Assembly (NCBI GenBank): GCA_026419785.1
Contig: JAODTK010003921.1
Span: 62,001-126,000, forward strand
Source: Sclerodactyla briareus
Taxonomy: Eukaryota; Echinodermata; Holothuroidea; Dendrochirotida; Sclerodactylidae
Length of the DNA: 64,000 nucleotides
Direction: 5' to 3'
Made by a program: the position numbers and the translations under genes. The notes under the pieces are model-generated. The model saw only the letters and a program-made list of their open reading frames with translations. It searched no databases and was not told the DNA's origin. Every line of letters begins with the position of its first letter. Positions within the stretch are counted from its first letter, which is position 1. Positions 2,857-48,868 of the stretch are shown here, piece after piece.

Positions 2857-4908
2857 ATGGTGTACATCGGATTCCTTTACGCCACCATTCTTGCGAGTGC
2901 CGGATTTGTGACAGGGCACGATATAAAGCTTTTCTTCAACGAGTCAAATCACCCGAGTTCGCAGGTTACACGGCTAAAGCGGGCGATACCGTTGTTTTAA
3001 CCTGTCAACCCCCGAGTGGGAACATACAAAATTTAAACATTAGGAGGAACCGTGACGAACTGGTGAAAAATGGTGAGTTAGTACATCAAGTGGACCAGCA
3101 TTTCCAACGATATCGCTTGGAAAAAAGCAATGCCCGTGATTATAGATTGGTAATTTCAAACATAACCTCTTCGCGTAGAACTCGCTATTGGTGTGAGTGT
3201 CATGTGTGGCGTCTGTATTCGTTTTGGACAGGTTTCTGGGTAGATCACACAATGTACGTTGATATGTATGTTTCGGAACGAAGTAGAGTGATAGACTATT
3301 GTATATTATCGAGCGGAGTGGATGGATTGTTCTTCAGTGATGAAAAATGAAATTACAATGTCATATCAGGAGAGGTTTACGTGGTGACATCGAAATAAAA
3401 GCAGGTAACCGATCCATCGGAGATATGACGACAGTGAACGGTGACAACAATAAATATTACATGACTATTGGCAACGTTACTGCCGTGAACAACAGTGAAC
3501 TGGTCTGCATGATATACGAAGTAGACTATTGTAGATATCTTCCAAAGATAACAGTTTTCGATTCTTTGTTAGTTTCAGTGACGTCGTTAAGGAATGATTC
3601 ACAACAAGGTGCGAGTCTCACTTTAACATGCTCTGAACATCCACAGTCACCGATGACTGTGTTCGAATGGAGCTTAGGAGGTAACTACTCTTTCGGTGGG
3701 AAGATATCGGAGACAAGAACAATGAATGGGAGTGTGTTCGAGATAACAAACATCACCTTTGCAAATGTAACTAGCAGCGCCATCCTCATTTACTGCACTG
3801 CAAAGCTAGGTCAAAGTCAAATAGCACAGGGGCTACAATAATACCGGACCATCAAACCACCTCCAATCCACCATCCGTGTCACCAACTGACGACTGCGGG
3901 ATGAATTCTCCAGTTTCTCGGGAGCTGGCTTACACGGCTCAACACCGAACTACGCCGCAGCTTTTCGACCCAGGTTAGCCGACGGCAATGTAACGGGAAT
4001 TGATTCAGGAAGCCATATCTGGTATATCACCGGGGCTTCGGCTATCGTGGTTTTAGTCGTTCTATTATTATTCATCAGATGTTACCGGAATCGACAGAAG
4101 CTAAGGCGCACAGACAGAGTTGCAGAATCTTCAAGTGGGCAAGTCGGAATTGTGTTGGAAGATAGTGACGTCAGAAAAATGACGGATCTGGGTTTATCGA
4201 CGAAAGAAGCCGAGGTAGCAACGAACGCAATGTACGAGCCGTACATCCCGGAGCAAGAGAAGAACAGAATGATGGAAACGTGGTTATCGTCCAGCGGAGC
4301 TGAAATAGCAACAAACGAAATGTACGAACCGTACATGGCGGAACGAGAAAACAACGAAAAGATGGCGACGTGGTTATCGTCCAGCGGAGCTGAAATAGCA
4401 ACAAACGAAATGTACGAACCGTACATGGCGGAACGAGAAAACAACGAAAAGATGGCGACGTGGTTATCGTTCAGTGGAGCTGAAATAGCAACAAACGAAA
4501 TGTGCGAACCGTACATGGCGGAACGAGAAAACAACGAAAAGATGGCGACGTGGTTATCGTTCAGTGGAGCTGAAATAGCACAAACGAAATGTACGAACCG
4601 TACATGGCGGAACGTGAAAACAACGAAATGGTGGAGATGGGTTCATCGTCGAGCCAAGGTAGGGTAGCACGAACGAAATATACGAACCGAACCTCCCAGA
4701 GAATGGAAGTAACGAAAAGACGGAAATGGGTGCCAACGGAATGAGGCTTCAATGTAGCAACGAATGAAATATACGAACCGTACATTCCAGAGAATGAAAA
4801 CATTGAAGCGACGCCAAACGCTGCTGGAATCGCGAAAAGGGCGTGTTTGGACCATATGGCTACATCAATCCAGTTCAAATTAGGTATGATACGCAACAGA
4901 AATACTGA
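2857..4908 (+). CDS. Receptor B: IgSF transmembrane receptor with an expanded YEPY-module tail (frameshifted)
   Basis: Likely a single-pass surface receptor. The ATG at 2857 starts a signal peptide (MVYIGFLYATILASAGFVTG). A V-type Ig domain follows (about 2960-3285; VVLTCQ and YWCEC give its cysteines), then a second Ig-like domain (3290-3560, CILSS to VCMI) and a third (3590-3830, LTLTC to IYCTA) with several N-glycosylation sequons. After a Ser/Thr/Pro-rich stalk comes one transmembrane helix (about 4014-4085, IVVLVVLLLFI) with a basic stop-transfer end. The tail has about seven modules of the type GLSxxEAEVATNEMYEPYIPE; modules 2-5 are near-identical 90 bp repeats. The end reads VFGPYGYINP and stops at 4906-4908. 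At least five single-base indels break the frame (near 2960, 3345, 3840, 4580, 4670). No introns are apparent. Either a live gene with sequencing errors or a young pseudogene. Ligand and signalling partners are unknown. Confidence 0.75.
4189..4660 (+). repeat. 90 bp tandem repeats encoding YEPY tail modules in receptor B
   Basis: The decamer TGGTTATCGT recurs at 4281, 4371, 4461 and 4551, exactly 90 bp apart, so each unit encodes 30 residues in frame. The units carry the core NEMYEPYMAERENNEKM. Units 2 and 3 are identical over most of their length; units 4 and 5 differ at a few bases. The unit before them (from 4189) is a diverged relative (NAMYEPYIPEQEKN). The fourth unit changes the first tyrosine to cysteine (ATGTGCGAACCG at about 4500). 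The fifth loses one A in ATAGCAACAAACG, which shifts the frame. This is recent in-frame expansion of a coding module. Confidence 0.9.
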
Positions 4909-5239
4909 TATTTGTATGAAGGACTACGATACGGTTTCACTCGCAATATTCTCGTTGTTACCAGTGAAACGCGTATCACAAATCTATTATCTCTTCCTGC
5001 ATGTATTGTTTTTTCGCATTCACTCTTATACCAGATCTGTACGTACTCGGTTTAGCCATTTGCACTCTGAACGGTGTGATGCTTCCTTGGTCTGTCATCA
5101 GCAGAGGCATTGCGTTGGCGCTTTGACTGGTTATAAGATGCCATTTAATTTGCACTGAGTAGAGTGGTCCTGCTTCCATATCACGATTGTCGGCAACTAT
5201 TATCTACTATGTTATCATAATAGTAATAATAAATAGTCT

Positions 5240-5930
5240 TATATAGCAAAAACTCCAACAAAAGAGTACAATGCGATCTACAGATGCCGAGAGTGCATTG
5301 GAAACATTAGGACTAGGAAAAAAAGTTTTCAGACGACGTTTGAAAAGATCGATAGAGTCAAGTGACTTCAAATCAACAGGAAGGGAGTTCCATAAGCGGG
5401 GAACATAGTTCCTAAGCTACTGTAACCATATGCTTTTCGAGACTGGGACCTGAAGGAAGTGATGTTGAAGACGGGAGCGTGTTGACTCTGTGTGTGTAGC
5501 AAATTATGTAAATAGGCTGGCTGGAGTACCATTTTTGATAGCACGAAATTAATGATGTGAACCTTTAGTCGATACGCTGAGGAATAGCCAGCCAGTGTAG
5601 CTCTCTCAGAACATTGGTAACATGTGTAAATTCTTAACCCTGCAAACTACACGGGCAGCTGTGTTTTGAACTCTTCGTAGCGGAGATAATTGGTTAGTAG
5701 AAGCCCCAAGCAGTATTGAATTTCCTTAGTCAAGTCGACTCGAAATTACGGCATGAATAAGTTTCTCAGTTGCTGGCCTATCAAGATATTGACTGAGTTG
5801 CCCCACACGTCTAATATGAAACATCATAGACTTGCATAGCATATTGAATTGGTGTCCATAGTTGAGTGGGTGTCCACTATACCCACTCATACATGAATCG
5901 ATGTTACACAATTTGGCTGAGTGTAGCAAA
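5240..5930 (-). mobile_element. 3' end of a LINE (reverse-transcriptase C-terminal region)
   Basis: Read on the minus strand, this encodes the post-RT region typical of CR1/L2-group non-LTR retrotransposons. The segments FHIRRVGQLSQYL then ATEKLIHAVISSRLD (about 5822-5726) correspond to the block that follows the thumb in these elements. Further on, KLHWLAIPQRIDLK (about 5610-5570) is the well-known LHWLP-type motif, followed by degenerate sequence with AYGYSSLGT. Several frame breaks and stops show it is dead. The element is strongly 5'-truncated, since no catalytic RT motif is present. It is absent from the matching position in the second duplication copy (44.75-46.04 kb). Confidence 0.75.
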
Positions 5931-7380
5931 TGAACACCTAGCCCAGACACACACTCTATTCAGTGCAGTTGTTAAGCTTCTTTCCTCCCTTCTCCAACTT
6001 CAACCCTTAAATCACCTTTTCCCGTCACTATTGACGTGTGCAACATTGTGGGTTGGGTTGGATGCTATTTGATAAGACAGTGAATTTTAAAATGCTGTTG
6101 GGCTGTTGGGTTGGGCATTTTCATGCCCAGGAAGTGCCTCCACTAATCTCACCGGATCCAATACCATATATCTAGTGTGGCGCCGCGCGCAATGTTAGCG
6201 TGATCCACGGGAGATGCTCTGAGTTCAGACTGATGTGTGGCAGGTGATCATTCTTCAGAAAAGGTTATGGATGAAAAACTTATAAGAATATACTTTGATC
6301 ATAGCTCTAAACGTTGTCAGGGCAATGTGTTCATTGTGTGTCATTTTCCTGCCATCGGGCGTGCCCTTCCAGTGATCTGGGATATCAACTTTATCATTTT
6401 ACGCTCTGCCCCAACTTATGGTTATGAAATTTAGAAACATCCCGGGTTGGCCTTTAGTTTAGTGGTCTTTGGTGTAGTGAAAACTGGTCAGGAACGACGA
6501 AATCCTCAGGAAAAGACCATGAAGCGACAATGGAGAACAACCGAGATGCCTAAAGAATTCGTTCACAATTCTGTAAAATAAATCAGATGTTCTTGAACGC
6601 ATTCACACTCGTAGACAAACTACATCTTCAGGGAAGGCTCTTCCACTCACTAATAACTCTCTGCGAGAAGAAATTCACGAATAATAATCAATCTACAGCG
6701 AAGCTAGATGCAATGACCCCTAGTGGTGGTAACATCGGGAATCTCAAAGAAATAGTGGAAACAAAGGCCATCTTATCCATGAACAAATTTTAAAACCTGA
6801 ATAAAATCACCTTGAATTGTCTTCGTATCTTCGAGAAGTAAGAATTCAATACTAGGGCAGAGAACTCCAGGTGAGGTCTCATCAGGTGCTTAAAAAAGCC
6901 TGACAGCAATATCTTATTCAAGGCCCATGAGGGGTCATCTCCAGTCTTTTAGAGGTATCAAAGGAGAAGGTTGCTGCTTCACTCTGATCTAGGTTGGGTT
7001 GGAAATTACAGGAGATGCGATAGTCGAACATGAGTTGAAACGGTCTTGCAATCTTCCACGAGTTATGGTTGAAAAAGGATGTTGGAGGACTAATTAGAAT
7101 CATTTTATCAGAGGTCAGCGGGAGTCTTCGAAAGTTGGGCTGTCGTTGCGTCCTTGTAGAGACACGTAGGACCGAAACGTAAACTTCCGGTGAATCGTAT
7201 GTAGGTCACGCCTGGACCTCTCGATAAACAGAAAAAACATATCACAATGTAAACGAGATGATATCACCAGCATTAACTGTTGTCAATAGGACTAGTAACA
7301 TCTCCCATAAATTCCAGCAGATTAGTCAAAACACGAACGATTTTTATCCGAATCAGATTAATAGTTCTTGCTATGCGGTT
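5931..7380. other. Stretch without a recognised gene
   Basis: No recognisable protein, RNA gene or long repeat. Short reading frames on both strands show no domain signature. The sequence has no counterpart in the second duplication copy and separates the two shared blocks. Confidence 0.4.
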
Positions 7381-7420
7381 GCGTACGCCCAGACGAGACA
7401 TAGCCCGCAAACGAATAGTT

Positions 7421-7582
7421 CGTCAGTGGAAAAGAACAAAATGGGGTCTTCGCAGGTATTGTTTGTACACCATGCTGGATCGGCTTGTCGAACTAATATT
7501 TCGTCAGTGGAAAAGAACAAAATGGTGTCTCGCCCGGTATTTGTTTGTACACCATGCTGGATCGGCTTGTCGAAAAAAAGAA
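7421..7582. repeat. Two-copy 81 bp tandem duplication
   Basis: CGTCAGTGGAAAAGAACAAA starts at 7421 and again at 7502, and the following sequence (TTTGTACACCATGCTGGATC and GGCTTGTCGAA) is repeated in step. The equivalent locus at 46080-46130 has only one copy, so the duplication happened after the segmental duplication or was lost there. No protein is recognised. Confidence 0.8.
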
Positions 7583-8375
7583 GAAGCTCGTCTACGGGAA
7601 GTTGTTCACAGTCATAATATGTATTTTTAATAGTAGGTTATAGAATCGTGTGGAAGTTACCATAATCACGGTGACCCGTACAGAAGCTGCATGTGAATGA
7701 AGGAAAATATTGCAGGTAATCCATATTCGAGCATGTTAGCAAATTGCCCATCACTATTCAGTGTCGTCAGAGAGAAAATCAGAGTCCACCAACCCAGGAG
7801 GCTAGAGTGCATTGTTCTTTAGTGTGGGGAATGTTCAAGAACTATATTCTGCATGGAAACTACCTTCCGTTTCATTCGATTCAGTAATGTTGGCTAAGGT
7901 GTGCATACTAAGAGTATGTGTCGTCCGTAATATTTGTCTCTGTATCGGAAGAGGATATATACAAAAAAAAAACGAATATATACTGTCATCGTTCCGAGAC
8001 CCATGGAATATATTCACACGATATGCATTTTGGAAGATTTTCTGATATAATCGTTCAGCAGGAATACATCAAAACAAAACAAAAATCTTTTTGGAATCTT
8101 TTCAATGGGCTGCATATGTGAGAGGGCATTTGTACTGTGAGCGGGCAATGTAGCGCTATAAACAGTTATTCTGAACGACAGCGGCTTGAAACAAATATGC
8201 ATTAGTACCTGTTCATAGTTTGCATTGGTTTTCGTAGGATTTTGTGGAGTTCGGCATTCGTCTGAACACCTCAGGAACTGCAGAGGGATAATATACAGGA
8301 ACGAATTGCAAAACTTCGACTGTCGGGATCTATCCATCACGATCACCGTTAGTGTTTTTACATGTGCCGGCAATA

Positions 8376-10244
8376 ATGTATCCCACACTCCTTTACGTCA
8401 CCATTTTCACAACTGTCGCGTTCGTGAGAGGGAACGTTATAGAGTTGTTCTTTAACAAGTCATTACACACCAACGGGCACTCTTACCAGGCTGAGGAAGC
8501 GATACAGTCGTTTTAACCTGTAGAACGCAATTTAGGATTTTCGTTGAATGTAAACATTAAGATGAACTCCAGTCGTGGTGAAGTGGTGTCCACAATAGTG
8601 GAGAGTGGTGAATTGGTACGAGAAGGAAGTGAAAAACACCAAGGATACAATTTGGAGAAGGACGGTGATATGTATAGGTGATAATTTCGAGATTATCTGC
8701 TCCCGGTGGAACCGGTTACACCTGTGAGTGTAGTTCTTGGGTTTTGAGAGATTACCAAAAGTACGTTGATCTCCATGTCTCAGAACGACATGAGTTTGGG
8801 TGGACTATTGTGTTCTCTCAAATGGAGAAGATGGATTATTTTTCAGAGATGAAGTGATAGTTTGAACTGTTCTGTAGATGGAATCGTATTGAAAGTAGGT
8901 AACCAGTCAATTAGAAATGTGACAAGAAAAAGTGGTCCACGAAACACAACATAATGAATGACTGTTGGCAACGTTACTGTGGCAAACAACAGTAGGTTGA
9001 ACTGCATGAAACAAAAGGTTAATTATTGCGAAAACCTTCCTATTATAACAGTGTACAACTCTCTTGTGTTTCGGTAATGCCGAATGAGAGTGTCATACAA
9101 GAAGGTGCGAATCTGACTCTTACATGCACGAGCTATCCAGAGTCAATGTTGACTCAGTATGAATGGGGTGCGGGTGACATCTACTCCCTCGGGGAGAACG
9201 TCTCTGACTTCAAAACCGGACAGAAGGGTGTTCGAAGTAACTAACATCAGTTTCGCAAATGCAGTTAGGATGTTTATCTCGATAACTGTACTGCAAAACT
9301 GAAGTCGAAGTAAATGCCACAAGGGCTACAATTATGATAGGCCTACACCATCAGACTACCTCAAGTCCAGCCCATTACTGACGACCACGTTACAGAACTG
9401 GTTTTTTCCCAGGAATTACTCACACAGTGTACCACCGAACCAAGTCGCAGCCTTTCTTTCCAGAGTTAGCTGATGGTTATGCAACAAAATTCGATTCTAT
9501 CGGCCCTATTCGTTTATCTGATAGGTTCCAGCTATCGTCGGTATTTTGGTCTGGTACTATTCATCACATGGCCTTGCAACCGACAGAGAATAGGTCGCAT
9601 GGCCACGGTAGTAGAATCTTCAAGTGAGCAAGTCGGAGCAGAGGTTGTGGGCAGAGTCGCCACAGAAATGACAAAGATGGGTTTATCGCCCAACGAAGCC
9701 GAAGTCGCAGCGAACGACATTTACGACCCGTACATTCCAGACCAAGAAAACCTCGACATGGTGGAGATAAGGCTATCACAGAGTGAAGCCGAAGGCAACA
9801 ATAAACGAAATGTACGAACCGTACATCCCGGTACAAGACAACAAAGGAGTAACGGAAATGGGTTTATCGTCGAGCGAGCTGAGAGGTGGTAACAACGAAA
9901 CGGCATGACGAACCGACATCCCGGAGAAGAGAAGGCGGCAATGAAAGAGCGGAGATGGGTTTATCGGCGAGCGAGGCTTGATGGTGCAACGAAGAAATGT
10001 ACGAAAACCGTACAACCACGGAGAAAGAAGGAAAAGAAATGACGGAGATAGATAACCCGGGAGGAGCTGAGATAACAACAAGCGAAATGTGCGAACGTAC
10101 GCCAGGAAGAAAGGAGGCAACGAAACGCTGTAGATAGGATTATCGTCGGCGATGCTGAGTTGCAGCGAAGGCTTATACGAACCCGACATGGGCTTCTTGC
10201 TAAACGATGCTAAAATTGCGAACAACGTCGTGTATGGACCATAA
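8376..10244 (+). CDS. Receptor C: IgSF transmembrane receptor with YEPY-module tail (frameshifted)
   Basis: Closest paralog is receptor G. The ATG at 8376 gives a signal peptide (MYPTLLYVTIFTTVAFVRG) followed by IELFFNKSLHTNGHSYQ, the start of the first Ig-like domain. Ig2 lies at about 8800-9055 and Ig3 at 9066-9300 (SVIQEGANLTLTC, then an Asn-rich strand and the second Cys). A transmembrane segment is at about 9520-9590. The tail has about six modules; the clearest reads GLSPNEAEVAANDIYDPYIPD (9680-9745). It stops at VVYGP followed by TAA at 10242-10244, where receptor B reads on (CCATAT rather than CCATAA). Ig1 and Ig2 are badly broken by indels and stops, more than in G. Most likely a pseudogene or an error-laden copy of an active gene. 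No introns are seen. Confidence 0.68.
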
Positions 10245-11780
10245 GGCCACATTATTTCCAGTTAGCTATAAACTTACGTACAAAACATTACGTCGTCTGT
10301 GACTGAGCAGGCCCGAGTCGGACGCTGAGCGAACAACGAACTAGAGGGCGCTCCAGTACTCCCGGTGGACTGACCTCACCATGGGCATGAGTCACCACAT
10401 TCACGTCCCACCGATTCCCAACTGGAGTGCTCGAAAAACGGGTGAGCTTGGCACCCTTCGACCTGCGGGTGAACAACACAGTCGTGCGAGCAGAATGTTC
10501 ACGCGACATAAGGGTCATCACCATGGTCGAATATAGATCTGATAGAGATACTAAAGCTACGCTCACACTTGTCCGCCAACGGCAACGTCGACGGCAGCGG
10601 CAACGGCGGAAGGCCAACGGACAAAAAAACATCACACCTGTATACTGATGGTGTGTAACACTAGTACCGCGACGGCTATCCGGCAATCAGGGCAAAAATT
10701 ATTGCCGCATCAGGCGAAAAATGGAAAACCCACTCGGAGCGATTCATTGCGTCGCTGGAGCGGTGAAAATCTTTCTGCATACCAGTGCGCAGTTCAAATG
10801 AGGAATCTTTGCTTGAAAATAAGATATTAAATTAGAAATTAGAAAATCAGCTGCAAAAAGTCTTCGTAGATCGACGATTGTGCACAGGCATGTGTCTAAT
10901 ATATAGGCAACTGGTGTAGGCCATAATTGGCATAGGCCCTAGTCAAGTAGGTATAGCTTTAGGGTGAGTGGGGAGAGGGACGCCGAGCGGAAAACGATCC
11001 AGAGGGCACCCCAGCACTCCCTGTGGACTACCCGCCATCTGTGCCGGCCAGTTGTCGCGATCCGCTATGGGAGCGAAGCAAATGCAGTCGAGTCAACAAT
11101 TCCTGCGCCTCGCGCTGATAGAGGGTTGAGCTCTCCTTTGATAGAGAGTGCAACCCAATGCACCTTTATCAAGAGTACTCGAAACTTTTCCATTTAAAAT
11201 TACAATGGATTTCGTTACCAATTCCCTTAAACCCACGACTGTTGCGGTCTCTGTAGAGGCCCTGTGATGTAATATTGGCTGAGATAGGATGTCATTTTGC
11301 AATGGATAGTGTAGTCCAACATTGCCTGCAACTTTGTCCATAGTGTAATCTTCTGCAAACGTAAGGGCTCTTCACACTAGTTTCTTTTTTTTTCGTTCGG
11401 TCGTTTATTTGTGTTCCCACAGTGAGGTTTAAACAATAACAGAGATAATTCTAAGAATACAAATGTGGAAGGAAGTGCAATAGAACCTGGTGGGCTTATC
11501 AAGAAAGCAGTAACACTCCAAAAAAGTCTACCAAACATGTTTCTTTGCAAAACAATAACGTCAAATATTCACATAGTCTAACCCCGCCTCTTGCCCACGT
11601 ACACTATTATGAGTTAGTAAACTTTTTTGCAGATTTAATAATTGATTATATTATTTTGGAAGATCTTTACATTTGTACAGAGCTTGGGATTTTGAGACAA
11701 TTATCCATATACGGTAGGATGGTGACAATGAGATGACGGTGACTGCGATTGAAAGTCCGTAGCTTGTTAGGGTTATAGTT
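10245..11780. other. Intergenic DNA of the duplication with a repeated ~60 bp motif
   Basis: Two similar segments lie about 650 bp apart: 10320-10380 and 10978-11037. Both contain a GAGCG...AACGA...AGAGGGC core followed by CCAG(T/C)ACTCCC and GTGGACT. Related segments sit at 48985-49040 and 49240-49310 in copy 2, only about 250 bp apart. The extra spacing in copy 1 falls at about 10650-10960. Short reading frames occur on both strands, including an Arg-rich one at 10427-10648 that is a compositional effect. I cannot assign a gene; a 3' UTR or old mobile DNA are possible. Confidence 0.4.
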
Positions 11781-14790: not shown

Positions 14791-15240
14791 CTCCATCCGT
14801 GTTTGTATTCTCGGTTATGATTACTTTTGTCTGCATCGTTAGCCTTCAGGAAGTTGTTATTCACATGTTTGAATCCGATCCAAGCCGATTTGTGAGCTAC
14901 ACTGGACGTACCACGACGAACCAGGAAGTGTATATATACAAAGAGATATGCATACCTAATTATGTTTAGGCATTTTTATTCACAATCGTGATTGACATAT
15001 CATACTGACGATGATACTGGATCGCACTGGGGCTTTTTTTTTCGTCGTGACGTCATGGGCAAACGGACGCCTCGAGTGTGACCCCGTTCATACCAGTCGA
15101 CTTTTTTTTACATCAATTCGAAATGATCTCTCTACATGAAGGACGACGTAGGGAGGCTGGGACAACAAAGGACAAGACTTCAATTTCTGATTCTGTCTAA
15201 GTTGCGATCCTAGGCGAGATGGAAATAAATCTCATGCATC

Positions 15241-29284: not shown

Positions 29285-30580
29285 ATGACAATGGATTTGA
29301 ATACATTTGTCCTTGTCGCAGCAGTTTTTAACGTCGGGACCGTGTACGGGGACGTATTTTTTTTTTTCAAATGTAATTCATATTCTCAGTCTTCCAGCAA
29401 GGGTAATATATCGCCCAGGTGGGTTCGACGGTTACTTTGAAACTCACGATATCAGAAGAAGACACCAGAAATATAAAAACTCATTACGAGGAGTGGGCCT
29501 AGTGCCACGATTTTGGTAGAGGATAAAACAGTTACTAAGAAGGAAGTTTTTCACGAGCGCCATGACTTCTCATATGAATCAGATAACGGAGTTATTACAT
29601 ACACTCTTACGATTGCTAATGTCAGTGTTCTTGATGCCGGCCTGTATTTGGTCAAATATCAATACGATTGTTGGTTTTGTAGACGGTGGAAAGTTTGGGA
29701 GGAATATGTACACCTGCACGTAACAGAACACGGTATTGACATATGTACCATACCCAATGAAGGAGATGGTTGTTGTTCACTGGGCAAGATTTGACCCTAA
29801 GTTGTCCAGGGGATACATCTTTGAATATCACTGCAGGGGGTAAGACGATAGAAAATCCCATCCGTGAAAATGTCGGTAAAAACGCGAGATATGTCTTTCC
29901 AAACATGGAAGTAAATGGCGTCATTGATCTATTGAATAACAGTAGGTTTGTATGTCGTAATAATGCAGATACAACAGATGATAATGATCTCTGTAGATTC
30001 CTTCCTACATTGGTCATCCATGACTCTCTGCAAAGCCAGTTATAACACCTTCGAATGCAGTTATATCAGACGGCGGGAACCTTTCTCTGACTTGTAGTGA
30101 GTATCCAAAGGCATTTATGACCTCATATACATGGAACATGGATGCGGACTTCGGTAATTCGGTTCTTGTGTCTGATACACAAGATGGGAGTTTACTAGAA
30201 ATAACCGGGGGCTGCTTTCACAAACTTAACCGGGACGACTTTTTTAGTGAATTGTACAGTCATCGTCGGGTTAAAAAATACAACAGCGACAGCTACTATC
30301 GACCTAGTACCACCGAGTACGCCCTCGGACTGCGGCCAGATCAATTTCAGCAATACGAATCTGGATCCCGGCGGTTAGTTTGATTCTCCTCATAGTGATT
30401 TTAGTGATCGGTGTATATCTTTGCAGAAAGCGAAAAAAGTCACTTGACCTGATCAACAGACTAGCGACTGAACAAAATGACGGCAAATCGAAGGAGGATG
30501 CAACTGCAGTGAGAAAAAAGATTGGGTTATCGCTCAACGAGGCTGAGATAACAGAGAACACAGTGTATGAGCCTTGCTAA
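29285..30580 (+). CDS. Receptor D: diverged IgSF receptor with a short one-module tail
   Basis: A lone, diverged family member outside the duplication. The ATG at 29285 gives a signal peptide (MTMDLNTFVLVAAVFNVGTVYG). Ig1 covers about 29400-29740 (AQVGSTVTLKL in one frame; YTLTIANVSVLDAGLYLVKY in another; this domain lacks an obvious first Cys). Ig2 runs 29745-30030 (DICTI, LTLSC, then NNSRFVCRN) and Ig3 30045-30290 (GGNLSLTCSEYPKAF). The transmembrane helix AVSLILLIVILVIGVYLC is at 30371-30424. The tail is short: GLSLNEAEITENTVYEPC and a stop at 30578-30580, so it has one module with the second tyrosine replaced. Frame breaks lie near 29395, 29510, 29790, 30040 and 30210. No introns are seen. 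The early stop could be natural or a mutation. Confidence 0.72.
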
Positions 30581-31526
30581 GAAATGAGATAATGATCGAC
30601 ATCAACTGTTTCAGATCGTCGAGAGCAATGTTTTATTTGTAAGGAGAGATCGGTCGGTAGGTCTATTTTAAGTTGATAAGTCTCGTCTCGAATCTGTTAC
30701 GTATACTCGGTAAATCTGGCATAAAACAAATTGAATTAGGTTCTATGTAAATTGTCATGAGAGATACCAATTGCAATTAGTGGCTCCTAAATAAGTCGGA
30801 GAGTGATTGGGAATTCAACCTTAAGTTTTGTACTTGCAGTGTTTATGCATGCAGTTACGGCTCGGTATCATGCAGCTAAGCCTATGTTCCTTTTTCCAAA
30901 AAATCGGTAAGAGGGAATGCATCAGATCGCCCTATAGAAATTTTGAGATCTAAAATCTGGGAAAGGCAAACATTAGCGACAAAACATGTTTTCACAAGTT
31001 TCTTGTACAGTGAATTTCGGGAAGCTTGTTTTTTATTTAGATTAGGGGAAGATAATTTGGAACTTGGTCGCGTTCATTTTTCGTATTTTATCGGCGATCA
31101 TTACACAGTGTACGCTGCCTATATACTTTTTCGACATTGGACAATCACATTATGCCTATAGTTTGCATATTGTTTTGAAGGAACATTATAAGGGGCGAAT
31201 GGCGAATTCTACCACTTGAATATTGCTGATAAATAATTTTTGGCCGGACAATTGATAGCATCAGTGACAGTCGTAGGCTCCGGCTCCAATTTCTAGGATA
31301 TTTGTTCTTTATCGCTCCATCCTCGATCCCCCATCTTTTGAATAGCAATTCGACTGGTCTCCAGCGAAAATGTGCCGTGGTTCCTCTCAGGTGGCGGTCA
31401 AGTGAACTCGGTCGGAAGAATTTTCAAAGCTCTGCATTTTATTACATTTCATAGTGCAGGTCATCTCCAAATCTGAGAAAACCAGCAGCATCACAAGGTC
31501 GATATACGCACGTCTTGGAAGACTTG
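30581..31526. other. 3' flank of receptor D, no recognised gene
   Basis: AT-rich sequence with no domain signature on either strand and no match to the flanks of the other receptors that I can see. A 3' UTR could occupy part of it; no polyadenylation site can be fixed. Confidence 0.35.
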
Positions 31527-31895
31527 GGCTGGGATTCCAAAGATCGTATGCGATCTGGCTGGATGTGAAAATCACATATTTACGAAAACGAACGTTTGTT
31601 TCAGAAGAGAAAACACTATAAATGTATGCGCGAAAAGACCTTAAAAAGGCCGCAGCCCATGCGAGATATTCAAAGAATTATTTCGCGGTGCTACGCATCC
31701 GCATACGCGTTGTTACATGTGCTTATTTCGCCATTCAGCGTTGGTTTGCGTCAATTTACGAATTTTTGGCTTCTGTGGGACCAATATCTGTCTTTGCAAA
31801 CTAAAGAGAACATATTCAACACTGGCCCCCGCTCAGTTCACGTGAATTTGCGATTTTTCACGTACGCATACCCATCTATGAAATCCTAAGCCTTA
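31527..31895. mobile_element. MITE-like element, copy 1
   Basis: This 369 bp element starts GGCTGGGATTCCA and ends with TGAAATCCTAAGCCTTA, so the ends are inverted relatives (AAGGCTTAGGATTTCA on the other strand). The terminal inverted repeats extend inward with GTATGCG / CGCATAC-type sequence. The interior (ACATATTTACGAAAACGAAC and AAAAAGGCCGCAGCCCATGC) has no transposase. Copy 2 follows directly head-to-tail. Confidence 0.75.
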
Positions 31896-31896
31896 G

Positions 31897-32271
31897 GGCT
31901 GGGATCTCAATAGATGCGTATGCGTGTCCGGTCTGGAAGTGAAAATCACATATTTACGAAAACGAACGTTTGTTTCAGAAGAGAAAACACTATAAATGTA
32001 TGCGCGAAAAGACCTTAAAAAGGCCGCAGCCCATGCGAGATATTCCAAAAGAATTATTTCGCGTGCTACGCATCCGCATACGCGTTGTTACATGTGCTTA
32101 TTTCGCCCATTCAGCGTTGGTTTGCGTCAATTTACGAATTTTTGGCTTCTGTGGGACCAATATCTGTCTTTGCAAACTAAAGAGAACATATTCAAACACT
32201 AGCCCCCGTTCAGTTCACGTAAATTGTCGATTTTTCACGTACGCATACGCATCTATGGAATTCTAGCCTTA
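31897..32271. mobile_element. MITE-like element, copy 2, in tandem with copy 1
   Basis: This 375 bp copy begins GGCTGGGATCTCAATAGATG and ends CTATGGAATTCTAGCCTTA. It is nearly identical to copy 1 in the interior, with a period of 370 bp. The junction leaves at most one base between the end of copy 1 and this copy. Terminal inverted repeats are about 30 bp. Non-coding. Confidence 0.78.
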
Positions 32272-33681: not shown

Positions 33682-33682
33682 A

Positions 33683-37500: not shown

Positions 37501-38799
37501 TTATTTTGTTCCGGCTCAGACATCACTGTACCGCTATATACCAGTCTGCTCCACGGCGGCGGTTCTTCGTTGTCACGCAAAACTCGATCACCATGGAATA
37601 AATTATTACAAAACCATAGTCGATATGGTTAGCCACTACTCGGGAACAGGATACTCAGAACGCGGGCTTCGCTAGCTTCGCTAGAAATAACCACGGCCGT
37701 GTCCTCCAATCGTTCTCACATGTATCCTTGTTAATAAAATCCACATCCTCGATTTTGTGTCCAGTACCGGCCCTACGAAGGCCCTGCTAAACATGTGAAA
37801 ATGAAACTAAGTTTGTTTTCTTGAAAGCAATTTGACAGGTTGTGGATTCCTTGTTGCAGGCGTGAATCTATACACAGTTCACGTTAGTCCGTATGTGTAT
37901 GTGATATGCGTGGGAGTCGGTAGTTAGTCTTTTGTGTTAGACGATGAGACTTGATATTTCCCGTTTGCCTTGGTGCTTTAGTACACCACGCGAAGAATTC
38001 TGCAGTGCGCCATCACGCAAGCACGTACTCTCGGGTGTTGGTATCATTGTCCCATTCAAATTTTAATCTGCTTCCAATTATCGGATGAAGCCAATCGCAA
38101 CACTGAGAGGGAACACACACCCCGCTGCCGGATACATTCAAATATTTCCGTGAATGGTTGGACCGTAACAAGCTGTTACCACACCTGTAACATCGAGGAT
38201 TGTCGTTAGCAGTTTGACAATCCAAACATGATTCTTGCTATCCATATCATCGTATTTAAAAACACAGCAGCCATGAGATCAACCCCAACAGACGTTTGAC
38301 TTAGTTCGCCGGTATTGGCTGCCACTCGATATTATGTGCAGTGATTTGTACCTAACAAAGGCCTGTGGGAATTTCGTTTCGCTCGATTGTCGCGCTGACT
38401 CAGGGTGAGACCAGTGGGTGTGTTTGCGACGTCAACGTTGTGAATGTTACAATGGCATTTTCCGTACTGGAATACGGGGAAAGGGACATGCCTGCGTTAA
38501 AATCCAACCCTACTCAGTCTGTTTTGACTTTGTTGAGGAACCTCAACCAATTTTGGCATTCGTTTGGAAACGGAGATTACGTCCTATTTCCCATGAAGGA
38601 TTCATATTTTTTCGAATTCGTGCGCCCCCGGTGACCAAAGAACTGCAATATGCCTGCGAAGAGAGATAATACAGTGTGGCTTCAGCTGCATCATTCTTGG
38701 TTAAATTCTCATTTTCAGTATTGTAAAAGTTTGTTGTAAATATAAATGACCAGTTTTTCGTAGCATCCGCTCGAGATTTTTCAGGGTTGTACCATTACA
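34541..38799. other. Long stretch without a recognised gene
   Basis: The longest uninterrupted frame is 35055-35531 (+, 158 codons), which shows no signal peptide, domain or repeat and may be chance. A minus-strand Cys-rich frame at 38013-38225 (RCYRCGN, CVPSQCCDW) and a plus-strand frame at 38418-38669 with a CECYNGIF segment resembling part of an EGF-like fold could be isolated exons, but the evidence is weak. No receptor-family or LINE motif is seen. Confidence 0.35.
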
Positions 38800-38904
38800 T
38801 TATATAGATATGTATATTATATTATATATATATAATATATATATATATAAGAGTATAATAGATATATATATATATTATATATATTATTATATATATATAT
38901 ATAT
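38800..38904. repeat. AT dinucleotide microsatellite
   Basis: About 100 bp of imperfect (TA)n. It directly precedes interspersed repeat R copy 2. A second short AT stretch lies inside that repeat at about 39180-39212. Confidence 0.92.
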
Positions 38905-40165: not shown

Positions 40166-40559
40166 GGTCATGCTATTCTGATCAATTATATCGTAATTCT
40201 GTACAATTAGCATTTTGAGTGGGACTTAGAGGCATGCACTGACTTCAAGGGACGTTCAAGTCTGTTCATCTCAGGGGGACAGAAGCTTATCTCTGAAGTA
40301 ATCGGTGATCGCTGGAAGACTTGGTTCAGTGGACTTAGCTTGAAATCTGAAATTTTTCCATTGTCCTCGTTTCTAGTAATAACCGACCGTCCGAAGCCGC
40401 TTCGATCTCAGACTCGAATGGTGTTATATACTAGTTTTCAACACCGATCCCCCCCAAAACAGTTCGCCGGATAGTTTTAGACGTTACAATTGCAACTTCA
40501 TCCAATGATGTACCCACGGATTAATTACCGGCCCACCTACTTGTATGCCGCATTTGTTA

Positions 40560-42010
40560 AAGGGAAAATATACCTCCCTGCACTTTAACACAACAACATA
40601 TGGAAACGAGCACAGCTACACAGCTGTTGTTGGACCTGGTCCCTTCTAACCTGTGACCCCCCGGATGGAACCATATGGAATGTGAACATCGGGAGAGCCG
40701 TGATTACGGGGAGTGGTTTCAAACATGGTATAGATGATGGTCGATTTGTAAAGACGTGAACTAGACATCTCAAAAATCCATTTAGAAATCTGTAATGACG
40801 GTGAAGCCTCCGGGTTGGTGATTTTCGCGCGGAAACCCGTTATTATTGTGGATGCAATTGTGGCGTTTGTATTATTTATTTCATTTCTGGTGAATCTATC
40901 CTCAAAACGTACGTTGACCTTTATGTTTCTGAGCGAGGTAAAGATATCGACTACTGTACACTATCGATGGATGCGAGAGTACTTTTCCTGATGAAAAATT
41001 GATGTTACACTTCCTATCGAGATAATGGCGTGATGCGAAATTGCACACAATGCTGCAAGTGGCATGTTAAACCCGACCCTTTGTGAAGTTACTACTACTA
41101 GCGTAAACAACCCCAAGCCGGGTCTGCGTTCATCAAATGTGGAATTATTGTAGTACCACCTCCCGATATAACAGTGTCGAGTCCTTGTAGTTTCAGTATA
41201 CCGTCGCAGGAGTGATGAGGAAGGTCGAAACCTCACCCTTCATATGCACCGGTTTCCACAGTCGGCAATGACTCCATTTAATGGAGTTGGAAGTGACGAC
41301 CACTCTATATCGGAGGAACGTATCTGCATGGGAAACTGAACGGAGGTGTGCACAAAATAAGAAACAATTCAAGCTTTTCTAGAACAGATGGTCACATCTT
41401 CATAAACTGCACTGCAACACTAGGTTCGAAGGTGGACAGTGCGCAAGCCCGTGTGGACGAATATATTCGGAGTTCGCCATCGTCACTTTCAACCGAAGAT
41501 CTGATACAGATCACAAACCGTGTCGCAGTCTTCCACCCAGCGGTCAACGATGGAATATGAAACGGGAGATGACCAGTCCGTTTTATATCTGGTATCTGAT
41601 TGGCTTCTGTTCTCCTCTGTAACCTGATTGGCCTGTTAATTTTCCATCATATTCATGCAACCGATTGGAGCTGAGACGCGTGGACAAGGAGCCGCATCTT
41701 TTCATGTGAGCAAATCGGAACTGGGACAGAAAATAGTGACGTCACGGAAATGAGAAAATGGTGTTATCTCCGAGCGAAGGCGGAGGTAGCAACGAACGAA
41801 ATTTACGAACCGTACATCCCGGAGAACTAGGACACCGAAGTGACGCGGATGGGTTTGTCGCAGAACGATGCTGAGGTAGAAGCGAACGATATGTACGAAC
41901 CGTACGTCCCAGAGGAAGGAAATACCGAAATTGCTCCTCGCCAATCGTGCACAAAAATCGCGAAAGGTTGTGTAAACTATGTCGTACTCGATTCCGAAGA
42001 AGCCGAGTAA
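40560..42010 (+). pseudogene. Receptor E: degraded IgSF YEPY-tail receptor
   Basis: A family member with heavy decay. Fragments of the signal-peptide region (about 40535-40575) precede LHFNTTTYGNEHSYT, the start of Ig1. The end of Ig1 reads YVDLYVSERGKDIDYCTL (about 40910-40970). Ig2 is mostly unrecognisable (41000-41160), and Ig3 retains GHIFINCTATLG (41390-41425). A weak transmembrane region lies near 41580-41660. The tail keeps two good modules: EVATNEIYEPYIPEN (41787-41828) and EVEANDMYEPYVPEE (41872-41916). An in-frame TAG directly follows the first, a base substitution that indel errors cannot explain. The final block VVLDSEEAE ends in TAA at 42008-42010. I call it a pseudogene, although a receptor with an early-terminated tail is possible. 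Confidence 0.68.
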
Positions 42011-44740
42011 CGAGTACAGTTCGAATCCCCAGTCTCTATACCGTAGGGATATGGACTCAATCGAGTCCGTGTTAAGCAATCTGTCACGAGTCCGGACGCA
42101 CTACAGCGTTATGAACCATACAGTGGTTCGAGTTAGGAGCACTAGTTTTACGCTACCAAGCGAAAATAATATTTGACTGCAAGACAGCAGATGTTCCATT
42201 AAAATTCGGTTTGGTTAATCTGGATCATGATAGGATTATTGGTACTAAACTCAACTATAACTGGTGTCACGATCGGATTCGTCTATGTATGACTTTTTTA
42301 TACCTTGCAAATCGAATAGAATATGTTACAACAATTTTGCTACACAGTGTTATGAGAAGCTGTCCAACCGGATATAGGATTGTTGCGATATTTTTGGTTT
42401 TGGCCCCACTTATTCATTACAATTATTAATAGACTCAAAGGAAACGACCCTCTCTCACTGTTAGCATCTGTCATTCACGTAGGAGCAATTTTCTCTCCGC
42501 CACTAAGTTCAGGGACTTTTCAAGTGAGCCACTATTCCACCTACTCGTCAATGACATTTCAGAGATTCTAACTACTTCATACGTCATGGTTAATCATATA
42601 ATTATATCCTTCACGTCGTTTCCATATTGAAGACATGCTACGTATCATGTGAGGTATTAAGATTGATAGCAAATCACGATAAAAAAAAAGAGCTTGAAGA
42701 GAATCTGTCAGTGATCCTTGGTGGTAGAAATTTCTATTGACTAGACCTTACGATGTATATTATTTTTTCCACGTTGAGGATCCATTCAGGCCATGAGGGA
42801 TTAGGTTTAGAGTGATCCACTGAATATTGAAACTGGCTACTGGAAACTGGCTCCAGAGTCATCGATCGTAATTCGTCTATTTTTGACTATTGTGAACCCT
42901 TCTCATCATCGAATAGACAATGTTATAAACAATGTTTGCCAATCGTTATGTAAAACGGAACCGTTTTCTAGTAGTTTCGTTTACTGAGTATCCTCGGGTG
43001 AGAACCTAACATTAATGCTTTCAGCTTGTTTTTTATTTGAGGGCAAGTCCCCCGCCACACATTTTTAAAAAATTAATAATTATCATTGTACTTGGCAATT
43101 TCGCAATTGGCAACTTTGATGACGTCATATCTACCAATTTTGAGAAACGTTAATAAATATGATATGACTCATACAAAGTTTGCCAGTTGACAAAATCACA
43201 AAATTATTATGAAGTTTGAGGAAGCCATATCCTCCCAACCGATCATGCTATAAACTGTGTTATTTGATCGTTTTTTTATTCTCTTTAACAATATACACCA
43301 AAAGAGGTATTATTTTGGCTCGACTTTGCCTTAAACTTCGGTAGAACCGTGTTCCACTCATCAACCGGCTGAACGAGTACGAGAGGATTACTACCAGTTT
43401 CGTTTTTATTGTAACCCACCAAGCTGTTAGCTATAAGCTTGTATTAGTGAACCCACGACAAGACTCATAAACAACGAACCTCCTTCCGTAATTCCTGTTA
43501 TGATGATTTTCTCCTGACGTCCAAACTACTGACATAAACCTGATGAACCGGACATATATGTTCGAAGACAACATCTAAATACTCAGTTTTACTTCATTGT
43601 TGACACTATCGTCGCGTAAAAGACATCTGGCATAGACATCTTGGTGTTAGGAGGAAACTAAGGGCATTACTGTTATTTGCTGAGCGCGCTGAGCATGCAT
43701 GGTCAGTCCGGTGCATACCCGATAGCACTTGCGGATCGTATCTATCCATTCGAAACGTAACTGAGTTTTGAAAGGGCTATTTTACTACTTGGTTTCAGTT
43801 AGAAGGAAATTGGTTATATGTTCCGCAAGCCTGCAGCTGCTGATTGAAATGTGAACTAGAAATTTGGAAAAGTAACTCGAATGTACGGCTTATCACGAAA
43901 CGCCAGTCCGCGAAGCACTGGCAGCAAATCGGGGCAATTATTTGATGTACTAATTTCGCTCTATAATCTGGGCAGTGTAAATAGTTTCCTCTCATTGTTG
44001 TAACGATCATTAGATTTTGTCGACAAAACCCTCAAAATATTTCCATATTTAAACTTGCTTTCAATTCCTGACTTAATATCTTTCATTGATTTTCCACTTA
44101 CGGTAATGAATTTTCTTTTCCGCACTAACCGTAACGATATCAGACGAGACGGTTTTCGAGATAGTGTTAAACGTTCTAATTGTTCAATTAATCTAAACAA
44201 TCGAACGCGTAACCGGTATAACAATGGTGTTACCAATCGGATCTTTACGCCACCATTCTCACGAGTACCGGATTTGTGGAAGGACATCGATATAAAACTT
44301 TCTCAACGAACCAAAATCGCCCAAGCTCGCATTTCCACGCTGAGGCGGCGATACCGTGCACCCCCCAATTAACAACATACGGAATTTAACATCAGGAGGA
44401 AAACCGTGAACGACTGGTGAGAATGGAGTTGGTACAATCAAGTTGATCGGATCTTCACGATATTGCTTGGAAACTGGCATGACGGGTGAAACCCTATGGT
44501 ACCGATTGGTAATTTCGAAAAAGGCCTCCTCGCGTAGAACTGTATCCGTTGTTAGTGGAAATATTGACGACAGAGAAACCGTGACCACAATAAATTTACA
44601 TGACTATGATAACGGTTCCTGTCGTGAACAACCGTGCACTGGTCTGGCATTATAAGCAAATAGACTAATTGTAATTTCTTCCAAGGTAACAGTTTACAAC
44701 TCTTGTTTACTTTCAGTTTGATGAACTTTGATTCGCCTCT
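41880..44740. repeat. Segmental duplication, copy 2, left part
   Basis: Pairs with 1-3590 (see that entry for landmarks). It lacks the ~1 kb present at 1076-2088. Similarity stops at about 44720 inside receptor F, after which 44740-46050 is unrelated to copy 1. The intergenic DNA at 42011-44223 holds nothing recognised beyond this match. Confidence 0.85.
44224..44720 (+). pseudogene. Receptor F: truncated paralog of receptor B
   Basis: The ATG at 44224 sits in the same context as receptor B (AACGTTCTAATTGTTCAATT upstream in both) and begins a decayed signal peptide. Ig1 runs to about 44530 (B: 3187). The sequence then jumps to the part of Ig2 matching B from about 3430 (ACCACAATAAATTTACATGA), so about 240 bp including the second Ig1 cysteine is deleted. 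The match ends after TAACAGTTTACAACTC at about 44720. Ig3, the transmembrane helix and the tail are absent. This is a pseudogene, and sequencing error cannot account for it. Confidence 0.8.
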
Positions 44741-46050
44741 TTAAGACGAATCAAAAAAGTCAATTAACGGTAACTCTGTACGGCTGTAACTCAAATTACT
44801 GCCTAAAAACAGTATCGCAACCAACTGCCTTGCCAATAATCCATTTGTCCTACACCCATTGACTAGCTAGTAGCAACTACTTACGACTGCAACCTAAACG
44901 TCTTGGTAGCTGGCGGGCAAATCATCATCTATCTTTCTTTCTTTCTTTCCCTCGCCTTTCCCTTCTTTCTTTATCTTTCTTTCTCGGGTCTTTCTTCTTT
45001 CTTTCTTCCTTTCTTTCTGGGCTACATTTTTCATGCGACAGAAACTGGGACGTGATGTGGTGTGACAGACAAATACCCTCTAGCTCCAAAAGGACTTGAA
45101 CGATGCATTTCATTGTGTAATCAAATTATAGAGAAGGATATAGTTGGCTAGAGTACCGACTACAAGCGATGCTAATTTGAATATCCTCATTTCATAAAAA
45201 TTGGAATTGCATGACAGATTACAAAAATACATTCACAGCAAAATTACTTTCGAAAATTTCACAATTAAGTACATGATGGCGTTAGTCACATTTTATGATT
45301 TTGCGTGGTAGAAAGAACAACACAACCAGAGGAATATAATATAACCGATTTACGTTTTGCTCCGTACCAACTTAGCAACGCTATGCGTGCAGTGTGAGCG
45401 CGCCTAATGCTGTCCGCCATTAATGAGATTTGGGGCTAATTCCTTAATTTGATATGACCTTACGTACGTTCGTGCTTCGCGTGTATCGAGCAAGTAGCAG
45501 ATGAGACCGACAAACAACCTGTGTATTTTTTTTTGCCCGGACCGTAATTGCGTCCAGTCCTCCTTTGATCACAGAAGTTTGGAAGTCCGCCCTCTTGTCA
45601 ACTATATGAATCAAACTCGTAATGGCACTGGTCATTTCCAAGTGGGGTTGTAAAATTTGGAAGGCTTACCATTGGCTAAAATGATAATTAGCAAACGCAG
45701 GCCTAGGATCCGAGGCGGACGGGACGGGAGCCCGAGGCGTTGGTGGAGTGGATTACATATCTGCAAGGGAGAAACACACAATTGAGCAGTTGTCCAACTT
45801 CAAATCTGTAATACCCTGGGAGAAAACTATGTGCATTATATAACGTTCCCGAGAACCTTCCCACTCCAGACCTCTACGCTCACCCTCAACCTCCATGCCC
45901 CGACTGCCCGATTTTAACCCTTAAAAAAAAAAAAAAAAAAAAGCCCTGCCTATAACTATTCTGTCTAGTTTTCATATGTCCACGGCAAGGAAGAGTGGAC
46001 CCTTGGGCTCATATTTCTGATCAAATGATACCGTTCGTGCGTTGCTTTTG
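44741..46050. other. Interior of duplication copy 2 not shared with copy 1
   Basis: This replaces the end of receptor B and the LINE fragment found in copy 1. It holds a CTTT microsatellite (44930-45018) and a 20-base poly(A) at 45923-45942, which may mark the 3' end of a retro-inserted sequence on the + strand. No protein is recognised. Confidence 0.45.
44930..45018. repeat. CTTT-type microsatellite
   Basis: Imperfect CTTT/CCTT repeats over about 90 bp. The Arg/Lys/Glu-rich frame on the other strand is a translation of this repeat, not a gene. Confidence 0.9.
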
Positions 46051-46550
46051 CGTACGTCCAAACGAGACATAGCCCCGCAAACGAATATTTCATCAAAATG
46101 GAAGTGGAGAAGAACAAAAAGTTTTCCTCCCAGTAATTCTTTTAAATTTTACATCATGTGTTGATCACGCAACACTTAATTTTTTCGTGGTAACTGTTCA
46201 CAGCCATATTCGTGTATGTTTATTAGTAGGTATGAATGCTCGTCCAGAAAACCATAATAACGGTGAACCCGGAACTATATATGTGAAGAAGGAAATCAGT
46301 ATTGCGGTAATTCCATATTCGAACATGTTTCCAAATTTTCCGATACTATTCACTGTCGTCACGAGGCGAACATCAGAGCCAACCAACCATGGAGGCTAGG
46401 GTGCATTTTTCGTTATTGTGGGAATGTTCAAGAACTATATTCTTCATGAAAACTACATTCCGTTTCATTCGATTCAGTAATGTTGGCTAAGGTGTGTATA
46501 CATAGGAGTATATACCGTCTGTAATCTTTGTTTCTGATCGGCATAAGAGG

Positions 46551-46738
46551 ATATATAAAATATATATATATATATTATATATATATATATATATAATATA
46601 TATAATATATATATATAATATATATATATTATATATATATATATCTATATATATATATATATTATATATATATATATTATATATATATATATATATATCT
46701 ATATATATATATATAGATATATATATATATATATATAC
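46551..46738. repeat. Expanded AT microsatellite
   Basis: About 185 bp of near-pure (TA)n between AGAGGATATA and TATATACTGTCATCG. The same anchors at 7950-7990 enclose only about 25 bp of mixed A/T sequence, so this tract expanded in one duplication copy. The Tyr/Ile frame on the minus strand is repeat translation. Confidence 0.95.
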
Positions 46739-47174
46739 TGTCATCGTTCCAAGACCCCTGGAATATATTCACACGATATCCGTTTCTGGAAGATTTTCCT
46801 GATCTAATCGTTCAGCTGTAATTGTGAAACACACATATCAACATCGTTTTGAAACCTTTTCAATGGGCTGCATATGTGAGAGGGCATCTGTACTGTGAGC
46901 GGGCAACGTACGCTAGCAACAGTATTTCGGATATGTTTGATAAATTCTGAACGACAGCAGCTCGAAACGATTATACATGAGTACCTGTTTATAGTTTGCT
47001 GGAAGCATTGGTTTCCGTAGGATTTTGTGGAGTTCGGCATTCGTCTGAACACCTAAGGAACTACAGGGGGATAATATACGGAACGAATTGCAAAACGTCG
47101 AATGTCGGGATATATTCAATCACCGTTAGTGTAATATCATGTTTTTCATCCAAGTGTTTTACATTGCAGCAATA

Positions 47175-48868
47175 ATGCATCCCACAATCCTTTACGTCAC
47201 TATTTTCACAACTGTCGCGTTCGTGAGAGGGAACTTTATAGAGTTGTTCTTTAACAAGTCATCACACACCAACGTTATGGAGTTGTTCTTTAACAAGTCA
47301 TTACACACCAACGTTATGGAGTTGTTCTTTAACAAGTCATTACACACCAACGGGCACTCTTACCAGGCTGAGGAAGGCGATACAGTCGTTTTAACCTGTA
47401 AAGCCCATGTAGTTGTCGTGCGGTGGATTGTAAACATTAAGATGAGCCCATTCCTGATGGAATGGTTTCCACACTAGTAGAGAGTGGTGAGTTGGTGCAG
47501 GGAGGGAGTGAAAAAGCCCAACAATACGAATTGAAGAAGGAAGGTGATACGTACAATTTGGTAATTTCAAAATTATCTGCTCCGCAAGTATTCGTTATAC
47601 CTGTGAGTGTCAATTTGGGATTTGGAAAAAAAAACAAATGGACGTTGATCTCTCAGTGTACGACTCTCCACTTGTGGTTTCGATAATGCCGAATGAGAGT
47701 GTCATACAAGAAGGTGCGAATCTGACTCTTACATGCTCGAGCTATCCAGAGTCAATGTTGACTCAGTATGAATGGGGTGCGGGTGACATCTACCTCCCTC
47801 GGGAGAACGTCTCTGACTTAAAAAACCGGGACGGAAGGGTGCTCGATGTAACTAACATCAGCTTCGCAAATGCAATTAGCGGTGTTATCTCGATAAACTG
47901 TACTGCAAAAACTGAGGTCAAAAGTGAATACCACAAGGGCTACAAATATGATACACCATCAGACTACCTCAAATCCCCATGTGTGTCATCAACTGAAGAC
48001 CACGTGACAGAACTGGTTATTACCCAGGAATCAGCTCACACCGTGTACCACCGAACTACGTCGCAACCTTTTTCGTCCCAGAGTTAGCTGATGGTTATGT
48101 AACAAAATTCGATTCTATCGGCCCTATCTGGTATATGATAGGGCCTCCGGTTATCGTGGTGTTGATTGGTCTGGTAATATTTATCACATGTCACTGCAAC
48201 CGACAAAGATTAGGACGCATGGCCACGGTAGCAGAATCTTTAGGTGAGCAAATCGGAGCAGAGCTATGGGTAAAAAAACAAAGAAGACTCCGAGGAATGA
48301 CGACGAATGTTTTACGCTCAACGAAGCCGAGGTCGCGGCGAACGAAATTTACGAACTTACATCCCAGACCAAGAAAACCGCGAAATGGTAGAGCTGGGGC
48401 TATCATCGAGTAACAACTCCGCAGGTACCATTGACCGAATGTATGAACAGTCATCCCGAACAAGACAAAAAAGGAGTAACTTATATGGGTTTATCGTCGA
48501 GCGAGGCTGAGGTAGCAACGAACGAATGTACGAACCTTAACAGCCCGGAGAAAGAAGGCAAAGAAATGACGGAGATGGGTTTATCGTCGAGCGAGGCTGA
48601 GGTAGCAACGAACGAATGTACGAACGTACAACCCGGAGGACTGCGCAAAGAAAAGAAATGACGGAGATGGGCTAATTTTCGGGTGAAGCTGAGGTAACAA
48701 CAAGCGAAATGTGCGAACCGTACTTTCCGGAGAAAGGAGGCAACGAAACGCTGTAGATAGGATTATCGTCGGGCGATGCTGAGGTTACAAACGAACGAAT
48801 ATACGAACCCGACATGTCTTCTTGCTAAACATGCTGAAATTGCGAACAAACTTCGTGATGGACCATAG
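47175..48868 (+). CDS. Receptor G: IgSF YEPY-tail receptor, best-preserved Ig3 (frameshifted)
   Basis: The paralog of C and the clearest template for the family. The ATG at 47175 gives the signal peptide MHPTILYVTIFTTVAFVRG. A 13-residue segment (ELFFNKSLHTNVM) then occurs three times in frame, and Ig1 follows (EEGDTVVLTCKAH). Ig1 ends and Ig2 appears largely deleted, since 47640 passes almost directly to Ig3. Ig3 is intact: VIQEGANLTLTCSSYPE to INCTAKTE (47700-47912). A stalk precedes the transmembrane helix IWYMIGPPVIVVLIGLVIFI (48126-48186). The tail has about six modules, two of them 90 bp apart (48485, 48575) with GLSSSEAEVATNE. The stop (TAG, 48866-48868) follows a GP pair as in C. Frame breaks lie near 47455, 48085, 48290 and in most tail modules. 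Whether it is expressed cannot be told. Confidence 0.73.
47235..47353 (+). repeat. In-frame triplication of a 39 bp segment in receptor G
   Basis: GAGTTGTTCTTTAACAAGTC is repeated three times at 39 bp spacing with CATTACACACCAACGTTATG or close variants. It encodes ELFFNKS(S/L)HTN three times, each with an NKS sequon. Receptor C has a single copy at about 8440-8478, so the triplication occurred after C and G separated. Confidence 0.93.

Follow-up and report, generated by a model that had tools for sequence, protein, structure and literature searches.

The window examined here is a stretch of 64,000 nucleotides from the holothuroid Sclerodactyla briareus (contig JAODTK010003921.1, here C2350, positions 62001-126000), taken from an assembly of 319,486,128 bases in 3171 contigs. 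Six-frame reading combined with tblastn located six loci in the window that resemble receptors of the immunoglobulin superfamily (IgSF), all on the forward strand, and the last stretch of a seventh at positions 1-37 (Table 1). Where copies have to be told apart, loci carry a number giving their position on C2350 in kb; X64, B70, E91, D103, F106 and G109 are the window's loci X, B, E, D, F and G. The first-pass annotation had proposed at least seven related loci on one strand, sharing a signal peptide, three Ig-like domains, a transmembrane (TM) helix and a repeat tail. Orientation and number hold for the six loci and the seventh's tail end, but a separate full locus 'C' was not found in the window. 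The shared layout can be followed, in pieces, through X, B and D; E has a single tail module, G lacks Ig2 and F is a fragment of the Ig1 region. What that annotation did not mention is that every copy is frame-broken, several of them with stop codons.

Table 1. Receptor-like loci of the window and of the adjoining array. Positions are those of the window unless prefixed by C2350; frame damage refers to the aligned part.
Feature	Position	Strand	Content	Frame damage
D61 (D-type)	1-37 (tail end; tblastn to C2350:62037); rest upstream of the window, C2350:60578-62000	+		5 frameshifts, 3 stops (C2350:60578-62025)
X (X64)	2857-4850	+	approximate parts: signal peptide 2858-2926, Ig1 2963-3270, Ig2 3271-3565, Ig3 3566-3815, stalk before TM, TM 4011-4090, tail modules 4177-4800 (about seven 90-bp YEPY modules)	5 frameshifts, 0 stops, 594 aligned codons (2857-4657)
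B (B70)	8373-10262	+	signal peptide, Ig1-3, TM, tail with two clear modules (YDPY, YEPY) and decayed ones	19 frameshifts, 2 stops, 543 aligned codons
E (E91)	29285-30577	+	signal peptide, three Ig-like domains, TM, one module ending VYEPC, then stop	6 frameshifts, 0 stops, 415 aligned codons
D (D103)	40505-41929	+	decayed three-Ig copy, two YEPY modules	24 frameshifts, 2 stops, 438 aligned codons
F (F106)	44231-44720 (protein-level match 44231-44541; DNA match to C2350:106717)	+	X-type fragment, mainly signal peptide and Ig1, plus a stretch matching X Ig2	5 frameshifts, 0 stops, 96 codons (part; 44231-44541)
G (G109)	47169-48870	+	B-type copy without Ig2 (three-way X/B/G DNA alignment)	11 frameshifts, 2 stops, 464 aligned codons
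Repeated unit in G	47232-47349	+	39-bp (13-codon) unit three times, directly after the signal peptide; single in B	
Duplicated segment	7800-15100		copy at ~46400-53300; windowed identity mostly 0.70-0.98, non-coding DNA included	
X29		+		21 frameshifts, 4 stops
D24		+		18 frameshifts, 4 stops
B36		+		13 frameshifts, 3 stops (part)
E17		+		14 frameshifts, 3 stops (part)
E53		+		3 frameshifts, 1 stop (part)
E0		+		9 frameshifts, 2 stops (part)

Locus X is the clearest of the window. Its frame-joined protein matched the Pfam families Ig_3 (E 1.4e-9; 38.7 bits, cut-off 30) and ig (27.2 bits, cut-off 21.8), and Ig_3 was found at E<=0.01 in four of the six frame-joined members; Ig2 itself had no Pfam match. 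When ten open reading frames (ORFs) were searched unjoined, eight of them pieces of the receptors, a single one (X Ig3) exceeded the Pfam cut-off. A profile of six members returned 11 PDB chains at E<=1, every one an Ig-domain molecule and all of them weak, with FCRL5 as the best (E 0.026). By these profile matches the loci belong to the IgSF. A hydrophobic leader and a TM stretch were recognised by eye in the translations of X, B, E, D and G, with the frame shifting between pieces, and the predicted architecture is that of a type-I transmembrane receptor. Structure prediction for X Ig1, from an alignment of 3 sequences, gave a mean predicted local distance difference test score of 43.1.

The window lies within a longer array. 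Over the span surveyed for it (C2350:1-145800; the tail search alone extended over C2350:145801-237406), family comparison and self-comparison of the contig yielded 13 loci, all on the forward strand and in the order E0; E17, D24, X29, B36; E53, D61, X64, B70; E91, D103, F106, G109. An E-D-X-B block is thus present three times, with equivalent copies ~35-42 kb apart, and E0 is a piece of an E copy truncated by the contig start; the array starts before the window does, at C2350:1 or earlier still. Aligned pieces between the block copies are mostly 66-86% identical, non-coding DNA included, and the duplicated segment in Table 1 is one among many such collinear matches. Between B and G, patches of 95-98% identity stand beside others of ~75%, and the near-identical patches include non-coding DNA.

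The tail consists of modules of ~30 amino acids with the core EAEVATNEMYEPYIPE. Allowing up to 7 substitutions in 16 positions, we found 21 matches to this core in the three forward frames of the surveyed span, all 21 within the loci, and none on the reverse strand at the same tolerance; the repeats described in the first-pass annotation are therefore beyond chance. Among these matches the first tyrosine is retained in 18 and the second in 17. Each D-type copy carries two modules, compared with about seven in X (six from the core scan and a further one from tblastn), one in E and two clear ones in B. In a search of the whole assembly, tail matches were confined to this contig (at least 12, from 19 scored candidates). 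None of eight frame-joined tails contained an immunoreceptor tyrosine-based inhibitory, switch or activation motif (ITIM, ITSM or ITAM), in agreement with the earlier statement that the core is no canonical ITIM and lacks ITAM spacing, and we accordingly rejected a canonical ITIM/ITAM receptor. Isolated YxxPhi matches occur in the tails of D24, B70 and G109, and one YxxL/I in that of G109. Protein searches (8000, 8000 and 5570 candidates) returned no relative at E<=1, a scan of IMG/VR confirmed none, and the string MYEPY was not found in a text search of 5.39 million papers; among the papers listed for the shorter YEPY, a conference abstract book contains it once. Together with the weak, generic Ig matches from the PDB, this accords with the annotator's failure to recognise the tail from a named receptor family, yet animal proteins may be scarce in the collection searched, which makes the absence of relatives weak evidence of novelty.

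Introns were not seen in X, B or G. The three-way alignment of these loci showed no inserted sequence at the frame changes, which rules out introns as their source. In B36, outside the window, ~1.3 kb separates the two matched parts. HSP70 genes of the same assembly are split, unlike the intronless receptor loci, and the founder of the array was probably a single-exon retrocopy, as its lack of introns would suggest.

Codon statistics, less sensitive to indels than frame counts, also bear on the question of decay. Between subfamilies, mismatches concentrate at third codon positions (.333/.301/.454 for the X-D ectodomain;.355/.314/.421 for X-B), and the ratio of nonsynonymous to synonymous rates (dN/dS) lies at 0.28-0.53 in the eight pairs whose dS is finite (in two others dS is saturated). 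Third-position excess and low dN/dS together argue for constraint at the protein level during the origin of the subfamilies. Comparisons within subfamilies show little difference between codon positions (X64-X29 ectodomain.231/.203/.262; D61-D24.228/.208/.199). Ratios of replacement to silent changes from three-way comparisons, for which 2.83-2.98 is the neutral expectation, are 3.06, 2.67 and 2.34 on the branches of D24, D61 and D103, 2.80 for X29, 2.50 for F106 (a short triple), and 2.78, 3.11 and 2.94 for B36, B70 and G109; the X64 branch gives 4.0, on 20 changes (16 replacement, 4 silent). Since the triplication, the X, D and B copies have thus had replacement/silent ratios near the neutral value. 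The E branches, small or mixed, range from 1.20 to 3.71, and that of E91 has 11 changes in every triple. In two HSP70 copies of the same assembly, third positions still show an excess (22/18/47 mismatches in 183 codons). For changes able to convert a reference codon into a stop, the count (summed, E91-E17 included) was 52 within subfamilies, where ~68 were expected, and 21 between them, where ~49 were.

We read the locus, with a probability of about 60%, as a tandem array of intronless IgSF type-I receptor genes that is old, was once functional and is now mostly decayed, X and E perhaps being its last live copies. A single-exon founder, presumably a retrocopy, would have given rise to E, D, X and B as separate subfamilies while the protein was under constraint. 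Triplication of the four-gene block would have followed, and the copies would have drifted ever since, any constraint on them being slight or undetectable, which left most of them as pseudogenes. The functioning multigene receptor family envisaged at first is not supported, given that none of the 13 copies has an open frame and that the replacement/silent ratios of X, D and B lie near the neutral value, although X and E may still be live.

How far the broken frames speak for decay depends on the assembly. The frameshift-aware aligner made no false calls in 12 indel-free simulations, down to 46% identity. HSP70 on contig C2424 shows 16 frameshifts and 0 stops over 790 codons in 13 pieces, i.e. 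6.8 frameshifts per kb, with 7 of the 13 pieces hit; compared with human HSPA8, ten of these pieces are 76-91% identical and the others 68, 50 and 33%. In an Ig gene elsewhere in the assembly, which we take to resemble titin/obscurin, 4 of 14 Ig exons continue in another frame, as judged by eye. Several split HSP70 copies lie at C2424:19-123 kb, and HSP70 matches on other contigs are limited to C11; this picture suggests indel errors, perhaps gaps, across the assembly. We therefore rejected the argument that all copies must be pseudogenes since all their frames are broken: in an assembly so ridden with indels, as HSP70 with its frameshifts but no stops indicates, frameshifts cannot condemn X or E. 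Per kb, X (2.8), D61 (3.5) and E (4.6) carry fewer frameshifts than HSP70, and G (6.9) is level with it. X29, B, D24, D103 and E17 lie above it, at 10.7-16.8 with 2-4 stops each, as do the short pieces F106, B36, E53 and E0. That the density in X and E does not exceed that of HSP70 is why these two may be live.

An unlikely alternative is that the array is a relic dead throughout, all copies being pseudogenes and X and E merely the best preserved. The lack of any open frame fits it, as do the 16 replacement against 4 silent changes on the X branch, where no constraint is seen, and the distal tail of X (4658-4850, outside the count), where the frame changes once more and a TGA, in frame with the last module, stands just ahead of it. 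Besides, G has lost one domain, and only parts of E53, E0 and F are present (E0 being truncated where the contig ends). Such a relic is at odds with the absence of nonsense codons from the counted parts of X and E and with their frameshift densities, both below that of HSP70.

Several observations weigh against an array that is mostly decayed. Its frameshifts are confounded by assembly errors, and X and E are free of nonsense in the part counted, even if both had been chosen as references for being the best preserved. Within subfamilies, alignment-guided dN/dS stays at 0.48-0.82 rather than reaching 1, and the values of the E pairs (0.48-0.57) and of X64-F106 (0.54) overlap or touch the range between subfamilies; the single-site ratio is a poor guide to the two classes (0.69-1.24 within, 0.69-0.98 between). 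In the X, D and B pairs divergence is somewhat lower in coding than in non-coding DNA, X64-F106 running opposite to the trend (coding.34-.40, non-coding.25). Finally, the tails of X and D (.12-.13) and of E91-E53 (.09) are less diverged, at.09-.13, than the flanks at ~.19-.23. We do not count among these points the short branches of X, D61, B and E as a sign that selection kept them: these copies were the alignment references, which biased the first test, and under unbiased alignments the difference shrank, extended for X and D61 to non-coding DNA and came with replacement/silent ratios near neutral.

The regional pattern of divergence bears on another alternative, more doubtful still, namely a live receptor cluster that is under diversifying selection, in which most of the frame damage would be sequencing error and a fast ectodomain and a conserved tail would add up to a near-neutral ratio. 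The indel errors exposed by HSP70 are compatible with it. Besides, X64-X29 divergence peaks in Ig1 (.28) and is lowest in stalk (.14), TM (.09) and tail (.13), with flanks at.20-.23, and the patchwork of identity between B and G is what gene conversion would be expected to produce. On the other hand, Ig1 is not raised in D (.17 in both D61-D24 and D61-D103), the B tails are not conserved (.21 and.23), and the near-identical B/G patches extend into non-coding DNA. Changes in the X64-X29 tail are flat over codon positions (.080/.112/.117), so that homogenisation of the repeats accounts for the small divergence of the tail no less well than selection would, and the five copies with frameshift densities well above that of HSP70 also carry their 2-4 stops each. 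Rows that looked misaligned were excluded from the regional comparison (signal peptide, tail and downstream flank of E91-E17; Ig2 and Ig3 of E91-E53; downstream flank of D24, at.48 and.52).

Returning to the mostly decayed array, a copy still at work would bind a ligand through its Ig ectodomain; kinases would then act on the tyrosine pair in every YEPY module, and the phosphorylated repeats of the tail might be docked by several SH2-type partners at a time. Both this docking and a role in immunity or allorecognition are suggested by the architecture. The fullest version of such a proposal would be a live cluster of single-exon IgSF receptors for self/non-self recognition or immunity, with signalling by a multivalent, undescribed phosphotyrosine array of the YEPY (Y-x-P-Y) type, a conserved tail, a fast-evolving outer Ig domain in the X line and broken copies nearby serving as donors for gene conversion; we regard it as an improbable prospect. 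Were even one copy live, animal IgSF receptors would gain a tail module from outside the ITIM/ITAM vocabulary, within an array whose sequence documents how it arose and decayed. Were all of them dead, the locus would offer a well-resolved case of receptor-array decay, along with a caution that pseudogenes are mimicked by an assembly full of errors.

Among known systems, the Alr cluster of Hydractinia is the closest comparison by organisation: 40 Alr and Alr-like genes are described in a linked cluster that includes potential pseudogenes (PMC11876637), and a family of 41 genes has V-set and I-set domains (PMC11999971). Many related IgSF genes are thus linked in one cluster with potential pseudogenes among them, as here. 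Arrays of immune receptors evolving by birth and death likewise share block duplication, unevenly preserved copies and the loss of single domains with the present one, which differs in that every copy is frame-broken as assembled, assembly error being a confounder. The vertebrate FCRL, LILR and KIR families are clustered multi-Ig type-I receptors with tyrosine-bearing tails. Their layout resembles that of the array, and FCRL5 was its best, if weak, match by profile; unlike them, the array has no ITIM, ITSM or ITAM in its tails, no significant sequence match and no introns that we could see.

Pfam searches with ten other ORFs gave one sub-threshold match to an unrelated family, scans with Rfam and for tRNAs were uninformative, and a search for COX1 had 0 matches. 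Two reverse-strand ORFs at 50493-50834 and 51444-51758, which had no Pfam match at E<=0.1, look like pieces of a reverse transcriptase of the type without long terminal repeats. A repeat of ~400 bp, possibly a mobile element, is present in at least four copies: a tandem pair at 31516-32271 (C2350:93516-94271) and a copy at 53718-54107 (C2350:115718-116107), all on the same strand, and an inverted one beyond the window (C2350:140937-141342). Three head-to-tail copies of a ~177-181 bp unit, 65-71% alike to the first, occupy 55480-55956, and AT-rich microsatellite tracts lie at 38777-38904 and 46531-46714.

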